A stretch of DNA of 64,000 bases, taken from contig BDDD01001651.1 of NCBI GenBank assembly GCA_001972305.1, forward strand, positions 124,001 to 188,000, written 5' to 3'. The notes under the pieces are model-generated. The model was given only the letters and a program-made list of their open reading frames with translations, was not told the origin of the DNA and did not search any database. Made by a program: the position numbers and the translations under genes. The stretch comes from Cephalotus follicularis (lineage: Eukaryota > Streptophyta > Magnoliopsida > Oxalidales > Cephalotaceae). This document shows, in pieces, positions 10,001 through 64,000 of the stretch (the first letter of the stretch is position 1; every line of letters starts with the position of its first letter).

Positions 10001-10460
10001 ACTACATGCATAACTGTAATAAAAAACTCATAATTAACAGACATTGATATATATATATATATATATGAAATATCTATTTCTTAATTACTGTACTTGTGAA
10101 TGGTATTTTTCAAATCCAACAATTGAATTTGATATTATATTAATATAAATTACTCATACAAATTTTCAATTCAATCGGATATCTGTAAATATTATATTGA
10201 ATAAGATAATATTTTATTGTTTGTGAGTAAGTTATAGAATAATTAAAATTTTCATCTGAAAATGAAATAATTAGAGATATTCAATTGACCTAAAAATTTA
10301 CATACATGATCTAGACAAATAGATCATAAAATCCATCAATTATATTTGAAAAATAATATTCATAAGTACGATAATTAAGGTGACACTGTAATATATATAT
10401 ATAATCCTACTTTGTCCGTAAATACTTATTTTCTCTCAACTTTTATGAGAACATTATATA
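10001..10460. other. AT-rich DNA with a dispersed-repeat copy
   Basis: No gene. A TA microsatellite lies at 10048-10066. Bases 10080-10390 share the wording of an AT-rich repeat (phrases such as ATCCAACAATTGAATTTGAT, CAATCGGATATC and ACATACATGATCT) also seen near 13650-13950 and, inside a callose synthase intron, near 29920-30185. Confidence 0.5.
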
Positions 10461-32700: not shown

Positions 32701-35700
32701 TGGCAGGTAATCATATTTGTCCTGTTCATAAGAAAGTGGACTGTGGTTGCATTTCCGCTGGTAGTTAGCGATTGACATGAGTTATTCATCAGATTTATTT
32801 GTTTATGTGTGCAGTGTTTCATCTCTTGCGTGGTTTATGTCAAATCAGGAGACTAGTTTTGTAACTATTGGGCAGAGATTACTGGCTAACCCTTTGAGGT
32901 AAACTTTTTATTTTCTGTTTCCTTTTTTATTTATTAGTATTATCTTCATGAATATGCTTTAAAAAATATGTAAATATCATGTGCTTGCTGCCAAGAGGCA
33001 CTCCAACTATGCTTTTACTTTGGTTTTAGCATAGTATGATAGTGAATGATGCTTTATGTGTAGAGTAGGCATGTTTTATCATTGTCCATGCATTATTCAT
33101 AATGAACTTCATATGTTGTCACAAATTGCAAATGGGTTTTAAAGCATGACATGATGTGAAATATATTGGCCAATAGATAAACAATCATGGGAAATTTGTA
33201 CTTTCTAGAGGATTGAGAAACATTATTGTAATACCTTCAACTCGGGTACTTCCTTCTGGGTTGGCTCCATTTTGACTTGGTTTTAATTGTAGAGTTGTTG
33301 AATATTCGCACTGCTGAAATGTTCTGTTTCTGGATTTTTTTAGTCCTTTTTTTTTCCTGTCAAATTTGGTCCTATTTTATTTATTTTGATGGTTAGATTT
33401 GTTGGCCTGACCAATATATTACAGAGCAGTACAATATCATTACCGAGTTTTGACCTGTATTCTCTAGAAACTCCGGTCCAAGGGTCAAATATCCTCCACC
33501 CAAGTTGGCACCTAATCTACTTCAGTATGCACTAGCCTGAAATTAGTTTTAGTTATGACTATGGAATGTAAAACCAGAATGTAAAGTAGTTCAAATATTT
33601 CATTTTTAATTCATTGAATGTATGAAACCAGAAATACTATTGGGTACAGGCTGGAGTTCAAGAGTATAAATTTTCTCCCTCAAAAAAAAAAAAAAGTGTA
33701 AATAAAATTTTTCCAAGAGTGATGGACCTTAAAAGTCGAAGTAGATTATGTTCAGATATTGTTTGGTCAAACAATTCTTGGGTTGCCTTTTGAACTCATG
33801 GGCTGAGATTGCAATAAGCATATGAACTACACTTATCACTATTGGGTAATTGGTATGAGGGTGGTGCAGGTATGTAAAAGCCGTTTTAAAACACCCCCAT
33901 CACATTATACTACTCACTGTTTTGTTTCTCTGGGTTATTTCAAATAATTTAATATGCTGACTGGATACTTTGGCGCTGCTTGTTCAGAGTCCGGTTCCAC
34001 TATGGTCATCCAGATGTTTTTGATAGATTGTTTCACATTACAAGAGGAGGTGTTAGCAAAGCTTCTAAAGTCATCAATTTGAGCGAGGACATATTTGCAG
34101 GCACTGTCATAAATTTTTGTCTTTTAGTTAATGAATTTTAAAGTTTTGGTTTCATGACTCAACTTTTGCATGCCTTTATTTTGTTTCAGGTTTCAATTCT
34201 ACACTTCGTGAAGGCAGTGTCACTCATCATGAATATATACAAGTTGGTAAAGGGAGAGATGTAGGCCTTAACCAGATTTCCATGTTTGAGGCAAAGATAG
34301 CTAATGGGAATGGTGAACAGACTTTAAGTCGAGACATATATAGGCTTGGGCATCGGTTTGATTTCTTCCGAATGCTGTCGTGCTATTTCACTACAGTTGG
34401 TTTCTATGTCAGTACTTTGGTGCGTATGAGATACACCTTCTTTTACCTTATATGATATGGTTCCTTGAATTTCTGAAACACTCTGGTTCTGTTTTGACAG
34501 TTAACTGTGCTCACAGTCTATGTGTTTCTTTATGGCCGCCTCTATCTCGTTCTCAGTGGACTTGAAAAAGCACTGAGTAGTCAAAATGGTATTCGAGACA
34601 ATAAGCCTCTTCAAGTAGCTCTTGCTTCTCAGTCTTTTGTGCAAATTGGTTTTTTGATGGCCTTACCTATGATGATGGAAATTGGTCTGGAAAGGGGGTT
34701 TCGTAATGCATTAAGTGATTTCATACTGATGCAATTACAGTTAGCCACTGTTTTTTTCACATTTTCTCTTGCCACAAAAACCCACTATTATGGGAGAACA
34801 TTGCTCCATGGGGGCGCACAATACCGAGGTACAGGTCGTGGTTTTGTAGTGTTCCATGCCAAATTTGCAGATAATTATAGGCTTTACTCTCGAAGCCACT
34901 TTGTCAAGGGAATTGAACTGATTATGTTACTTCTTGTGTACCATATATTTGGTCAATCATATAGAGGTGTAGTTGCATATATCTTGATCACTGTATCAAT
35001 GTGGTTCATGGTGGGGACATGGCTGTTTGCTCCTTTCCTGTTCAATCCATCAGGCTTTGAGTGGCAAAAGATTGTTGACGACTGGACAGATTGGAATAAG
35101 TGGATCAGCAACCGTGGGGGGATTGGTGTTCCTCCAGAAAAGAGTTGGGAGTCCTGGTGGGAGAAGGAACAAGATCATCTCCGTTTTACTGGGAAGCGTG
35201 GCATCATCGTTGAGATATTACTAGCATTGCGTTTTTTCATCTATCAGTTTGGACTTGTATATCACCTGACCATTACCAGGCATACCAAAAGTTTTCTGGT
35301 ATTATCCTTATGTCTGAAGTTTTATATTTTAGCAATATGTTTGAAAATATTTGTAAAATCTGAATATACTTTTGACTGGGATTACAGATTTATGGTGCTT
35401 CATGGCTTGTGATCTTTATAATTCTGTTTGTGGTAAAGGTGAGCACCAAAGCTTCCGACTCCTTCGATAATAACTTCAAATAGCAGTACTTATATAATAT
35501 GTAATTATGTATATATATACATGCATACATTTATTTATTCATCCATATGTTTTTGGAAGTATGCAAATGAATTTCTCTGCCTAAAAGTTACCATGTGGAA
35601 GCTTTCTACTGGGTGTAGATTGTGAAGATGTTTGATCATTGCTAATTTCTTATAGCTCTGCTTGTGCCACTTTGGATGTCTTCCCTGGGAAAACAAACCT

Positions 35701-46692: not shown

Positions 46693-49445
46693 TGTGACAT
46701 CCGTGTCCCAGTAGTCTGTGTCTGTGAGCCTATGTGGCACTCTGTCTGTCTGTCTAGTGATCAGTCTATTTTTCTAGCATTCATGACATATGCATCACGA
46801 CATTAATGAAATTTTTACCAGAGTGATTTCATTCTGTTGGTTTTTCTGCATAACAAATAAATGTTTTGGTTTCGTTTAGAAAGGATGAGCCCTTTTATTT
46901 ATTTATTTATTTATGTTTGATAATATGGTTGAGCTGGAGCCCAATGCATACTTGTTTTCAGTTTTAACTTGTGGTCTGTTGAGGACTGAGCCCACTTTGT
47001 AAACTGCTGATTTCCTCCTTCGGGAGTGTGGATTTTATAAACTGTGTTTTTCTTTATATAGGGCATAGTCCGATAAACGGATACTACATACCCGATTTTC
47101 GTAAAAAATTTAAGAGTTAGAATTATTTTCAACTTTTCAAAGAAATTATTCTATTTAAAAATGCATTTTTGAAACTCTGATCTGCTGAACTTGCGAGATG
47201 AGTCTCTAATGGGAGGCTTGGCCTCTTAGCGGGCGCGACGGATTCTAACTGGGCTAGGTCCGGGCGTGTCAAGTTGGTATCAGAGCTTTTGGTTTTTAGA
47301 TTTTCTAGACTCATCTTGACGTCATGCATTTCTGGTAAGCATTCATTTCTGAGTTCTGGTATAAGTGTGGGTAGCATGCCTTGTGGTCAACAGAAATCAT
47401 CTTATGATAAAGTTTGAGTTTGGGTTCGACCCAAATGTTCTGAGGTCTGAGATTTCTGTTCGGGATTTCTCTGTCGCAACATAGTTTGTTGCTAGGGTGT
47501 CACACCCTTATTCCCCCTATTCTAATATGATAGATCTGAAATGTCTGATGATGTTTTGGAGTTCTGATTCTGTTGTTGAAGTTATTGGTTGGTTTTATTT
47601 GAGGTTATAATGATAGAGCTTTTTAATTCAGAAATTTTAAGGTTCAAGTTTTAGTATGTTTATCAGTTTGTGGAATTAAGATTTAGTTTCTGATGAGGTT
47701 ATGATTGGTGTCTGAAATTCTGTCTGATGGAGTTCCCTGTTAAGGGAGATATGTTTGGGAGTCAATAAATTCTGATAAATGTGATGCTTTACTGTGCAGT
47801 AAATGTCGAGTAGTTGATGTGATTGATCCATCCCTCTGGAAAGTTTAATGACTGTGTACCTTTGGGTGAAATTGTAATACGAGGAGATAGGTATAGCTTG
47901 AATTTTGTTTCACAGTTTTAATGTATAATACTTTGGTGTAAACAATATGGAAGTAGTTTGGTTATCCTCCGGAAGGGAAGTTAAAAATGTGAAGAATTTC
48001 TTATGATCTGCAGGCTGGATATGTATTTCAAAGAGACCTAACCTTATACTTGACGAGTACCATAATGTGGAGTCTGTTGATGAACATCTCTTGAGCTAGT
48101 AGGTATGGTTAATTGAATAAGGTTGAATTGGAGTTCAGGATTCAACATTTTTGCTTGATGATAGGAAGTGTGGATCTGTGAAGCGGTAATATATTAATAA
48201 GGTTCTTGATATGCTTATGTGATACCGATGATTGCAGTATGAGTTCTGCTGATTTGGTGATTGTTAAAGATCCTTAATACTTGTGTAAAGTTTGATATGG
48301 TTTAAATTTTGATATTGAATTGAAGTTCCTAGATGATGGAAATGCTACAAGTTTTAGTTATATGTGGAGTCCTCTAGGCAAGAATTATAAAGAATGACAT
48401 GAACCTTTTCAAAACAGACAATTGAGAGTTATAAATATTTGATGTTATAAGTTTTCAATAGTCTCTGTATGGTTATAAATCTGGTAATGTCGAGGATTAT
48501 AGTATAAATTCTGATCAAATGTCTGTCAAGGATTTGTATTCATGACTTAAAGTTTTGACACGATCTGATTAGTGAATGAATTTGAGGTTTCTAGTAGATA
48601 AAAATCTTGCGAGTCAAGATACCTTGTGAATCATGCTTAGAAAAAAACTTTTCAGGTTCTGGTGACGAAAATCTGATAATGATATGTGAATGGTTCTGAT
48701 GTGAGTAAAAGCGATAGTCGAAAGTCTTGAGTAATCTGATTTCTGTATTGTGGAAAAGTTATTATGAGTTTGATCATTTCTGTTTTATCTTATGAAGCAA
48801 GTGCTAAAAATCTTTTCAACCTTTGGAGTTCTGGGAATTTTGAGGACGAAATTCTGTTAAGGGGGATATGTTTGTGACATCCGTGTCCCAGTAGTCTGTG
48901 TCTGTGAGCCTATGTGGCATTCTGTCTGTCTGTCTAACGGTCAGTCTATTTTTCTAGCATTCATGACATATGCATCGCGACATTAATGAAAATTTTACCA
49001 GAGTGATTTCATTCTGTTGGTGTTTCTGCATAACAAATAAATGTTTTTGGTTTCGTTTAGAAGGGCTGAGCCCTTTTTTATTTATTTATGTTTGATAATA
49101 CGGTTGAGCTGAAGCCCAATGCATACTTATTTTCTGTTTTAACTTGTGGTCTGCTGAGGGCTAAGCTCACTTTGTAAAGTACTGATTCCTCCTTCGGGAG
49201 TGTGGATTTTATAAACTGTGTTTTTCTTTACAGGAGGTATAGTCCGATAAACGGATATTACATGCCTGATTTTCGTAAAAAAATTAAGAGTTAGAATTAT
49301 TTTCAACTTTTCAAAGAAATTCTTTAGTTTAAAAATGCATTTCTGAAACTCTGATCTGCTGAACCTATGAGGTGAGTCTCTAATGAGAGGCTTGGCCTCG
49401 TAGGGGGCGCGACGAATTCCAACTAGGCTGGGTCCGGGCGTGTCA
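46693..49445 (+). mobile_element. Nested non-autonomous LTR element (Tekay/Del-derived)
   Basis: Exact 5-bp duplications TTCTC at 46688-46692 and 49446-49450. LTRs at 46693-47271 and 48873-49445, both TGTGACATCC...GGGCGTGTCA. A primer-binding site TTGGTATCAGAGC follows the first LTR at 47275 and a purine tract (AAGGGGGATA) precedes the second. The 1.6-kb interior has no gag-pol. Its 3' end reads GAGGACGAAATTCTGTTAAG, which is the usual end of Tekay/Del pol in plants, so it looks like a deletion derivative that needs another element's proteins. It splits the gag of the host gypsy element. Confidence 0.87.
47275..47287 (+). other. Primer-binding site of the nested element
   Basis: TTGGTATCAGAGC, complementary to the 3' end of initiator tRNA-Met, three bases after the LTR end. 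Confidence 0.8.
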
Positions 49446-60060: not shown

Positions 60061-60120
60061 GAGGAAGAAACGTGTGGCTTTTGCTTGTGATCTTGAGGGT
60101 AACATTGAGGTGAAGCCACA

Positions 60121-60232
60121 TCACACCATACGATATTGAGCAGTGTGGAACGCCCCAGGCAAGGGCGTGCACATCATCACACCATACGATATTGAGCAGT
60201 GTGGAACGCCCCAGGCAAGGGCGTGCACATCT
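60121..60232 (+). repeat. 56-bp direct tandem duplication
   Basis: The unit starting TCACACCATACGATATTG at 60121 is repeated from 60177, essentially identical to about 60230. It lies at the copia deletion junction between the integrase start and the 3' LTR. Confidence 0.92.
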
Positions 60233-60772: not shown

Positions 60773-61880
60773 TAAAATGATTGTGAGTATTAATATTTTT
60801 TTCTTATTACCTAAACTATCTTGAATTACAAGACTGTATTTCTTAAATTATCCTTTAGTAGACGGTCTTAACCGCCTCACAGAATTGCCACCCTTTTGGA
60901 TCAGCACTTTTGCCCCTTAGATTTGCAGTTATACCACATTCTTTTCGCTTTGATATTGATGCATCTAATTCTATACTGGCGCTAGCTAAGCTCATGCAAT
61001 TACTGTGGCAATTGAAGGTTTGTTAGGTGTTGTCTTCACTGTAACTGATGAACCGATGGATGTTGGGATTGGTCTTCATTTATGTCATTTAAATAACCTA
61101 TTGGATTAAAATGTGAGATCATAAATTAACTAGCTATTTTGTTATGGGTCAATATGTTATGTCGCAAAATAAGTAATCTAATGCAATATTTCAAATAATG
61201 TAATAAGGATATGAAAGTAGTTTTATTTTATGGTTTTCTTTTCTTATCATTTAACCAAATATAAATTTGTATTCTTATTACTAAGCTATTCTTTACTTTC
61301 CTCTTCTCTAATAATTTGTATTCTCGTTTCTTCTCTAATAACGTAGTTGAGTTATCCAAACAGACCTAAATGTTTTAATGAACTTTTTTTTTCTCTTTTT
61401 GAATGGTAAAGACGAAAAGATAAAAAGTAAATGATTATACGTTAAACGAAAACAGATTGTGATTTCGTTAATTTCTTTGATTGATTATTAAATTTAACTA
61501 CTTATAAAAAGATGATAATAAATGATAATATCGAGATAATGTAAGTAATAACTAATAAAAAATAAAAATAAAACTCATATATTATTTATGGATTTAATGT
61601 TTTATCTCTATATTTTAATATCTTATAAATATAATTATGAGATTTAAAATAGATATTGTTCATTCTTTGCTAAAGAAATGGATAAGTGGGTGTATCTTAT
61701 CATAGAATGTTAACATGAATTCTTATCAATAATTTATTGTATATATAGAGTGTGTCAACTCAAAATTTTGTTAATGTTGGTGACAAAATTGTGTAGTTTA
61801 GCACATCACACAAAACAAAAACTACATAAGCTGTTCTTTATTAACACAAAAGAAGCCCCAACACAAAGCCGCTTTGTTGC
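60773..61880. other. AT-rich intergenic DNA
   Basis: No gene recognised. The stretch ends in a region rich in ATCCAAACAGACC-type and simple AT motifs before the RING gene's probable leader. Confidence 0.45.
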
Positions 61881-62838
61881 TTTGCTTCTCAAATCTCACT
61901 TTTTCACTTAGTAGCCGTTTGGTTAAAACAACAAATGAGGCAGGGATGATGATCATTTCCAAAATCTCATGACACCATCACTGATCTATAATCATCATCT
62001 TCTGATAGGTATATTGCCTCTCTTTACCTTGTTCAAGAATCATTGTGTTTTTTTTTTAATTTCTTCTCTTTCTTTCATTTTATTGACTATTGGGACTATT
62101 TGGGAGCGTTATTATCTTGTCCAATTATGATTTAAGGATAATAATATACAGTTTGTGAATGTTTGAGAACCCGAATAATCTATTTTGGCCTATATTTCCA
62201 ATTTCAATTTCTGGGTATAATCTAGGATACGAATATTTCCTTATCAATATATGTCCCTATAACAGTTTTGGCTGTCATAAAACCCATATAGTCTGTTTGG
62301 TTTATGAGAAATTTTTTTAGGGGATGCTTCAAAATCGGAAATTGATACTTCTGGTTATGAAAATGCTTCATCTTTTGGTTGATTCCTGCTCAATTGGGTT
62401 GGTTGATGAGAAAATTTTAGGCGGTGGTTAAAATGAGAAATTGATACTTCTGCTTGCATAGCCTTTTGGTTTATTCTTGCTCAATTGAGTTATAACCCTT
62501 AAATTGTGAATTCCAACATAAACAGTTCTTTATAATAATCGGCAATCTAATGGAATTGGGTTTTAGGAACCCAGCCCGAAGTTGATAGAGAATCGATAGG
62601 TCAAATTCTCACTCGGCCACTTGATTTCGTCTCAAATGACCTTAGCTTGCTCGTGTTTCAAAATCAATCGGGAGAAAAAAATTAAAAAAAAATCCCTAAT
62701 TTGATTTAAATGCATGAAGCAAATTTGAATTTACGCCTGAAGGAACTTTTTTTCACATGTTTTGACAGGAAAGGCTACCATTGTGAGCTTTTGTGCTTGG
62801 TTTTTATTTGGATTCTTAGCCAAAAAGGGAAATAATCT
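61880..62838 (+). other. Probable 5' UTR and UTR intron of the RING gene
   Basis: A plausible leader exon ends near 62007 (TGATAG followed by GTATATTG) and an acceptor TTTTGACAG ends near 62769, about 70 bases before the ATG. The intervening 760 bases are T-rich and without open frames. Inferred from splice consensus alone. Confidence 0.4.
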
Positions 62839-63558
62839 TTGAATATGGATCATGATGTGAGAGGCGAAATCATGGATATTGATTTGAACCAAGAACCTTT
62901 GGACCCTCAGCATGGTTCCATGCATGAATTAGGATCTTTATTGAGTGATATAGATACCACGCATGAACGCATTGAAGAGCGTATCAGACAACTTGAAGCA
63001 GTTACTACCAGAGCTAGACAGCGCCAAAGGTGGAGACAAGGACAAGAAACCTCTCAAGCAGTTAACATTCTTAGGGAACACGTGGCAGCTAATGTTCATG
63101 GTGAGAGTAGATAACTTTCTTGGGAAGTCGATTTTGTTGTCCAACAAATAACGGTTGAGAATGGAAAATTTAGCAAAAGGGATAGTACCCATTTGATAGC
63201 GAAGGCACTGAGAATGGATATAGATGCTAACAAGGCACTAAGTGATACCGAGGGCTTTTATGACTGCAATATATGCTTGGCAAGAGAGCCTATATTGACT
63301 TGTTGTGGTCACTTGTTTTGTTGGTCATGTTTCTATCGACTGTCATATACTCATTCGAATGTGAAGGAATGCCCTGTCTGTAAAGGAGATGTGTTGGATA
63401 CAAGCATCACTCCAATTTATGGAAATGGAAGTGATAACTATGACCACGTGTCGAAGTCTCAGGATTCTGGTTTGGAGGTCCCTCCAAGGCCCCGTGCACA
63501 CAGGATTGAGAGTGTGAGCTCCAAACCACAATCCTTAGACTTGGACACGTGGTCATAG
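62839..63558 (+). pseudogene. RING-finger E3 ubiquitin ligase-like gene with one in-frame stop
   Basis: The N-terminal part (MNMDHDVRGEIMDIDLNQEP, then a coiled-coil-like EERIRQLEAVTTRARQRQRW) is open from 62839. A single TAA at 63112-63114 interrupts it, after which the same frame continues through LIAKALRMD into a C3HC4 RING: CNIC, TCCGHLFCWSCF, ECPVC, then PIYGNGSDNYD. This layout resembles the RNF5/RNF185-like plant RING proteins that in Arabidopsis include MUSE1/MUSE2, which act in immune-receptor turnover. Two residues are missing after the second Cys (CNICLAREP; the copy has CNICLDMAIEP). The frame then runs into the inverted copy and stops at 63556-63558. An intron across the stop (GTGAGA...TTTAG) would be an alternative to a nonsense mutation. 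Confidence 0.65.
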
Positions 63559-63820
63559 TTATCGCTTCCATTTCCATAAATTGGAGTGATGCTTGTATCC
63601 AACACATCTCCCCTGCAGACAGGGCATTCCTTCACATTCAAATGAGTATATGACAACCGATAGAAACATGGCCAACAAAACAAGTGACCACAACATGTCA
63701 GTATAGGCTCTATTGCCATGTCCAAGCATATATTGCAGTCATAAAAGCCCCCGGTATCACTTACTGCCTTGTTAGCATCTGTATCCATTCCCAGTGCCTT
63801 AGCTATCAAATGGGTACTAT
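63182..63820. repeat. Long inverted repeat of the RING-coding segment
   Basis: The arm 63182-63477 (+) and the arm 63519-63820 (reverse complement) match closely from ATAGTACCC through to GGTTTGGAG. The 302- versus 296-base difference is explained by one 6-base deletion in the left arm. Loop 63478-63518 is 41 bases and continues the coding sequence (PPRPRAHRIESV). A transcript through this region would form a near-perfect hairpin of about 300 bp. Confidence 0.93.
63459..63809 (-). pseudogene. Inverted RING fragment, minus strand
   Basis: The minus-strand arm reads LIAKALGMDTDANKAV, a complete C3HC4 RING (CNICLDMAIEP, TCCGHLFCWPCF, ECPVC) and PIYGNGSDNYD, then leaves homology after DCGLEL at the loop and runs back through the left arm. 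It lacks the N-terminal part and an ATG in homologous position, so it is a fragment. It keeps the two residues lost from the + copy. Confidence 0.75.
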
Positions 63821-64000
63821 GTCACGAACTCACTTTAACCGTGCGGCACTTAGCAAACTTTTCCCTCTAAGTTAGCCTAACTCTTATTCCCAAGTGTTTA
63901 ACTCTCACAGAAAGAAAGTGAAGAATTGAGAGAGATGGAATACTCAAGCTTAGAAAGAATGCTTATGCTTTCAATTCACTCAAACTCACTTCTATGTTAC
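63820..64000. other. Window end; possible LTR start
   Basis: Immediately after the hairpin arm the sequence reads TGTCACGAACTCAC and loses similarity to the left flank. TGTCACG is a plausible LTR start, but the partner end lies outside the window. No coding sequence seen. Confidence 0.25.

Follow-up and report, generated by a model that had tools for sequence, protein, structure and literature searches.

In Arabidopsis FOLT1/FOLT2 (Sha, C24), truncated and rearranged duplicates are described as making small interfering RNAs (siRNAs) that silence the intact paralogue (PMC5257005, PMC8042742). Rice Lgc1 (GluB4/GluB5), according to the cited account, carries a 3.5-kb deletion between genes that left a tail-to-tail inverted pair and post-transcriptional silencing (PMC10647759), and at Arabidopsis IR71 a long hairpin RNA is reported to be cut by DCL2 and DCL3 and secondarily by DCL4 (PMC12825306). 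Here we describe an inverted repeat of RING-coding sequence in Cephalotus follicularis, which lies at the end of a 64,000-nucleotide window (the whole stretch of DNA that was analysed, bases 124001-188000 of contig C1651, in an assembly of 1.58 Gb and 9746 contigs). Arm A of the repeat belongs to a truncated RING gene (copy A), arm B is an inverted fragment of RING-gene sequence, and an intact sister gene (gene C) lies on the same contig. The arrangement is of an already known kind and resembles FOLT and Lgc1 on paper. We favor the reading, with a probability of roughly 0.55, that it is a latent hairpin siRNA locus directed against gene C, which would work in the manner of the FOLT2 truncated copies or of Lgc1.

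As FOLT is described in the cited reports, the likeness lies in a complex rearrangement that contains a truncated copy of a duplicated gene together with an intact paralogue, and is not based on inverted orientation. The siRNAs and the methylation were measured at FOLT, whereas the A/B locus is known from its anatomy alone; the family here is a RING E3 family, and 21 kb of the same contig separate the intact copy from the truncated one. The locus would share with Lgc1 a deletion that leaves an inverted arrangement, but Lgc1 in its published description has two gene copies tail to tail, whereas the A/B locus has one truncated copy with a short internal fragment attached in inverted orientation. 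A long hairpin RNA, predicted here, is common to IR71, for which ~3 kb of double-stranded RNA (dsRNA) and known siRNAs are reported, in contrast to a predicted stem of ~0.3 kb. Finally, MIRNA genes born by inverted duplication, as described in PMC3237417, also contain an inverted copy of target-gene sequence, but the present locus has neither a short imperfect fold-back nor a known miRNA. The locus offers a dissectable snapshot of the birth of a hairpin locus: each piece can be named, from the intact sister and its broken duplicate through the inverted fragment to the receptor gene cut short and the long terminal repeat (LTR) that came later, and only one gene of the family is a predicted target. 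Should the locus yield siRNAs, this would show that deletion repair between two genes can make a gene-specific silencer at once; otherwise, the locus is ordinary pseudogene debris.

The inverted repeat and its predicted fold

A sequence-only reading of this DNA had described two arms with the borders ATAGTACCC and GGTTTGGAG and a 41-base spacer, and all of these were recovered. Arm A starts at 63182 and ends with GGTTTGGAG at 63477, the outer arm border is ATAGTACCC, and arm B begins at 63519 after the loop (Table 1). A repeat search found the arms complementary over 203 nt at 93% and over 99 nt at 95%. The alignment of the arms, one of the checks suggested in the sequence-only reading, showed 21 differences in 301 columns (63182-63482) plus gaps, the largest of 6 bp; two of the 21 fall beyond GGTTTGGAG, inside the loop. 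The loop itself has no A-C mismatch in 29 aligned columns. Among the inverted self-matches of at least 100 bp in the window (E up to 1e-10), the pair of arms A and B is the strongest, and the remaining ones comprise CT/GA-rich pairs at ~54.8-56.7 kb and, at 10054-10403, a palindrome of 68%.

The suggested in silico fold gave -517.3 kcal/mol for the RNA of 63162-63840, compared with a shuffle mean of -179.9 (n = 20; z -47.9). Together with the Pfam RING matches, this supports the earlier proposal that a piece of a RING gene lies in an inverted repeat able to fold to long dsRNA. When the inferred spliced transcript was folded, 284 of the 299 left-arm bases paired with the right arm, and with the LTR retained pairing persisted at 279 of 299 positions of the inner arm and at 64 of 81 of the outer arm. 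The locus therefore has the anatomy of an endogenous inverted-repeat siRNA (hpRNA) locus, namely a long inverted repeat whose RNA would form dsRNA.

The truncated copy A and its intact sister gene C

Copy A is the 5' part of a direct duplicate, and its 3' half is missing. The encoded protein is 91% identical in amino acids to that of gene C over C residues 1-217, with one TAA within. Its RING is two residues short as a result of the 6-bp loss, and Ser replaces Pro between two zinc-binding Cys. None of the eight Pfam matches to the RING of the left arm reaches its cut-off, while 5 of 11 do so for the RING of the right arm. Copy A also contains 30 bp in frame (10 codons, 63070-63099) that are absent from gene C.

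Gene C (C1651:208294-209589) is one open frame of 432 aa on the same strand, 21 kb downstream, and its RING exceeds the Pfam cut-offs (zf-RING_5, 31.1 bits with a cut-off of 27.9; zf-C3HC4_3, 30.9 with a cut-off of 27). It was found by the genome-wide search for an intact parent gene that the sequence-only reading had also suggested, and its predicted complementarity to the hairpin was borne out by 106 of the 285 arm B 21-mers being exact. As an intact paralogue that shares long stretches of sequence with the hairpin (95% identity to arm B), gene C provides the configuration expected for paralogue silencing of the FOLT2 or Lgc1 type. The genome searches score the best candidates only, and the absence of further copies holds for those in this assembly. 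A protein search of the whole genome returned C, copy A and arm B, followed only by distant relatives (13 matches, 27 candidates scored); the next full-length homologue of gene C among the candidates scored, on contig C328, is 38% identical.

Copy A and gene C match over 61802-63515 at 88% and further upstream over 61243-61617 at 86%, indicating that promoter-side DNA was part of the duplication. The upstream leader that had been assumed for the transcript is retained as a probable one, with a predicted exon, intron and TATA-like motif (Table 1). The A-C distance (K) amounts to 0.068 for the intron and, over 371 columns, to 0.071 for the arm. A second close copy of the 3' half of gene C was not found among the two candidates scored, the sole other match being a stretch of 87 bp (80%) within the C328 gene; the 3' half of copy A is therefore absent from the assembly as far as the scored candidates extend.

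A PDB search returned 44 matching sequences with BRCA1 as the best, which shows a generic RING only. Collections of bacterial, viral and plasmid DNA yielded no relative; genome_contigs gave 69 pattern stretches, of which not one was confirmed, viral_contigs gave no stretch and the plasmids no match. Among plant RING E3 ligases, MUSE1 and MUSE2 are AT3G58030 and AT2G42030 (PMC7911189), and they are reported to control the immune receptor SIKIC2 (PMC8948693). The sequence-only reading had raised the MUSE1/MUSE2 type, and with it an effect on immune-receptor turnover, as a possibility for this family; that identity gained no support here.

A solo LTR and a receptor-kinase-like gene on the right side

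The sequence-only reading had taken the two arms to share the same borders. The sequence ends are as it gave them, but at ATAGTACCC a solo LTR has inserted into arm B, and this end is not a duplication border. Past the LTR arm B resumes, with 64287-64367 corresponding to inverted 63186-63106 at 94% (positions beyond 64000 are window-equivalent coordinates on the same contig), and its last bases are then repeated in a short second copy that reaches ~64385. In total, arm B comprises ~375 bp of inverted RING-gene coding sequence.

The inserted element has the TG...CA ends, the target repeat and the many copies of an LTR retrotransposon, with LTR-related sequence in 61 matching stretches of the genome including itself (best 40 of 85 candidates scored). 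Because arm B is interrupted by nothing else, the element is classed as a solo LTR. Some contigs carry several stretches of this LTR family within a few kb of each other. In genome_contigs, a 26-base segment of the LTR found no exact match.

From 64386 on, the sequence is 94% identical to contig C1532 and 74% to C4057, both of which extend upstream as the same gene, and arm B thus joins a leucine-rich repeat (LRR) receptor-kinase-like gene directly and in mid-gene. The LRR receptor-kinase-like fragment and the DNA that follows it, at 64386-64904 and 65592-66842 (locus L006, C1651:187001-197000), are 94% and 91% identical to C1532. The junction fragment carries leucine-rich repeats, and the C4057 frame contains LRR and kinase domains (Pfam). 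The receptor gene next to arm B is itself a broken neighbour, and its presence does not point to an immune role.

Origin of the inverted fragment

These structures very probably represent a broken duplicate carrying an inverted RING fragment. In the proposed mechanism, a single deletion would have removed the 3' half of copy A and the 5' part of the receptor gene, and its ends would have been joined through arm B as inverted templated filler DNA. Three-base microhomologies could have served at both junctions: ACT where B meets the LRR gene, and CTC/GAG where A meets B, provided that 7 bp were lost afterwards. Yeast is reported to form inverted templated insertions by fold-back when DNA is broken, but these are very short, mostly ~5-34 bp (PMC11724301), in contrast to the ~375 bp of arm B. 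A convergent-gene-pair origin of the Lgc1 type was also considered and dropped, with C direct, B an internal fragment and B ending in the receptor gene.

We compared the three copies in 335 ungapped columns and found 13 private changes in A (plus the 6-bp loss), 5 in B and 8 in C, with one column in which all three differ. The pairwise distances in the arm are 0.049 for B-C, 0.061 for A-B and 0.071 for A-C, and the resulting tree is near star-shaped. Segment borders in the distance, 21-mer and transition counts are approximate to a few bases. For outgroups, we tabulated four of the nine family loci (L014, L016, L017 and L021, with L015, L018, L019, L020 and L023 left out).

An alternative that concerns the origin only, and is compatible with a silencing function, is that B was copied from A by snap-back of the broken end and not from C; we give it somewhat less than an even chance. 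Gene C reads GTGAGGCAGCAGCTC past the break and arm A has GGAG, and a CTC/GAG snap-back followed by the 7-bp loss would yield the observed junction. In addition, A and B agree against C in a 3-bp indel state and in eight base states, and one of the shared states, a third-position change in TCG, opposes the third base of all four outgroup paralogues. Against a snap-back from A, B is closer to C than to A, and the A-B divergence is about as old as the A-C divergence (0.071; intron 0.068). Moreover, B shares the double change AGG with C; A reads AAA/AAG there, as do L014, L016 and L021 among the four outgroup paralogues, and the fourth, L017, has AAT. Equal decay of A and B would also give equal numbers of private changes, whereas 13 and 5 were counted (binomial p 0.096).

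The substitutions between arms A and B comprise 9 synonymous and 10 non-synonymous changes (ratio 0.27, Fisher p 0.006), and neutral simulations of this ratio under 20 settings gave P of 0.0045-0.066, higher with transition bias. Per branch, classed by hand from the three-way rows, A has 6 synonymous and 7 non-synonymous changes, B has 1 and 4, and C has 2 and 6. The synonymous excess is confined to the A branch, and the idea that the arms were two paralogues constrained before they were joined was abandoned.

Predicted silencing of gene C

Transcription from the copy A leader, if retained, would yield an RNA with A in sense and B in antisense orientation to gene C. Such an RNA would fold to a stem of ~300 bp, from which Dicer-like enzymes could release 21-24-nt siRNAs. 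The antisense strands, from arm B, would be the best match to C, and C might then be lowered by cleavage or by RNA-directed DNA methylation. The chance that the locus yields some siRNAs at all appears about even, and a measurable effect on gene C is unlikely.

In the inferred mRNA of gene C, 106 of 285 21-mers of arm B are exact and 267 have at most two mismatches; the corresponding numbers for arm A are 37 and 204 of 279 (arms of 299 and 305 bases, one strand of the family loci, L023 left out). Eight other family loci contain no exact 21-mer, except for L017 with four for B and two for A. Because the other loci share only zero to four exact 21-mers, the predicted guides from arm B would be nearly specific to gene C within the RING family.

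The A-C transitions differ in direction between the arm and its surroundings. Inside the arm, copy A has the A/T state in 12 against 2, and outside in 15 against 16 (Fisher p 0.023, for a comparison chosen after the data were seen). This lean may be a weak trace of the pattern that cytosine methylation of the arm would give. The most complete version of the silencing reading, in which break repair templated on the sister gene would have created in one step an antisense silencer of C behind the copy A promoter, with the T/A lean of arm A as a trace of RNA-directed methylation, strikes us as improbable.

Several observations weigh against the silencing reading or against parts of it. Few arm A 21-mers are exact in arm B (44 of 279), implying a mismatch about every 15 bases of the duplex, and the LTR within the arm could terminate transcripts. 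Transitions between arm B and C show no A/T lean (2 to 3), though methylation would be expected there too; at two of the leaning arm sites the outgroups carry the state of A (CGA in L014, and the second base of AAA in all four); and the test of the lean is post hoc. The three-way counts also do not separate A from C as the template of B.

Alternative readings of the locus

Nearly as likely as a latent siRNA locus is inert debris, that is, the same rearranged pseudogene with untranscribed arms, no small RNAs and no effect. The stop codon, the 6-bp RING loss and the missing 3' half of copy A fit such decay, as do the position of the LTR within the arm, the B-specific changes, whose split into 1 synonymous and 4 non-synonymous gives no hint of constraint on coding, and the lack of a deamination lean in arm B. 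What debris does not explain as readily is that the leader, the probable intron and the TATA-like motif are retained and that the arms still pair across almost their entire length.

The sequence-only reading, which is partly supported overall, had also linked the locus to young MIRNA genes arising by inverted duplication of a target. MIRNA fold-backs are usually limited to ~300 nt, whereas the near-perfect stem here is itself ~300 bp and the fold spans ~640 nt, and no Rfam family reached its gathering score in the window. Long inverted repeats, moreover, are described as substrates of DCL2, DCL3 and/or DCL4 (PMC12825306). We regard a MIRNA locus as very improbable, and this part of the earlier proposal gained no support. 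The slimmest chance is that of an assembly artefact, which the 9746 contigs might suggest but against which stand the ~7% divergence of the arms, unexpected for a duplicated or snapped-back read, the solo LTR with its target repeat that only arm B carries, and the window free of N.

Features of the locus and other elements of the window

Table 1 Coordinates of copy A, the inverted repeat and the inserted LTR, numbered from the first base of the window
Feature	Position	Strand	Basis or remark
TATA-like motif, candidate core promoter; second at 61624	61740..61746	+	Motif scan
Inferred first leader exon, with homology to gene C	61802..62008	+	A-C alignment
Probable intron of the 5' leader (GT...AG, inferred), with a match in gene C	62009..62768	+	Splice motifs; A-C K 0.068, 721 columns
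Open frame left in copy A, 89 codons, ATG at 62845	62845..63111	+	Open reading frame
Left arm outer part, partner of inverted 64287-64367	63106..63181	+	93.8% over 81 bp (63106-63186)
In-frame stop TAA; TTA in gene C and arm B	63112..63114	+	Sequence comparison
Left arm A, RING-coding	63182..63477	+	6 bp missing after 63277
Loop, 41 bases, mostly the left gene copy carried on	63478..63518	+	Alignment
Right arm B, inverted RING-coding copy	63519..63819	-	95% identical to gene C
Solo LTR, 467 bp, TG...CA ends, target repeat ACTA	63820..64286 (first 181 bp, to 64000, inside the window)		Alignment

Elsewhere in the window, the ~350-bp palindrome at 10054-10403, which matches its own reverse complement, is like miniature inverted-repeat transposable elements (MITEs) or foldback elements. 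An open frame at 34507-35409 has a partial Pfam match, of 177.5 bits, to the glucan synthase (callose synthase) family. A direct repeat of ~580 bp (46693-47271 and 48873-49445, 91%) is located near pieces of retroelement reverse transcriptase and gag on the minus strand, and a 56-bp unit forms a perfect tandem pair at 60119-60230.
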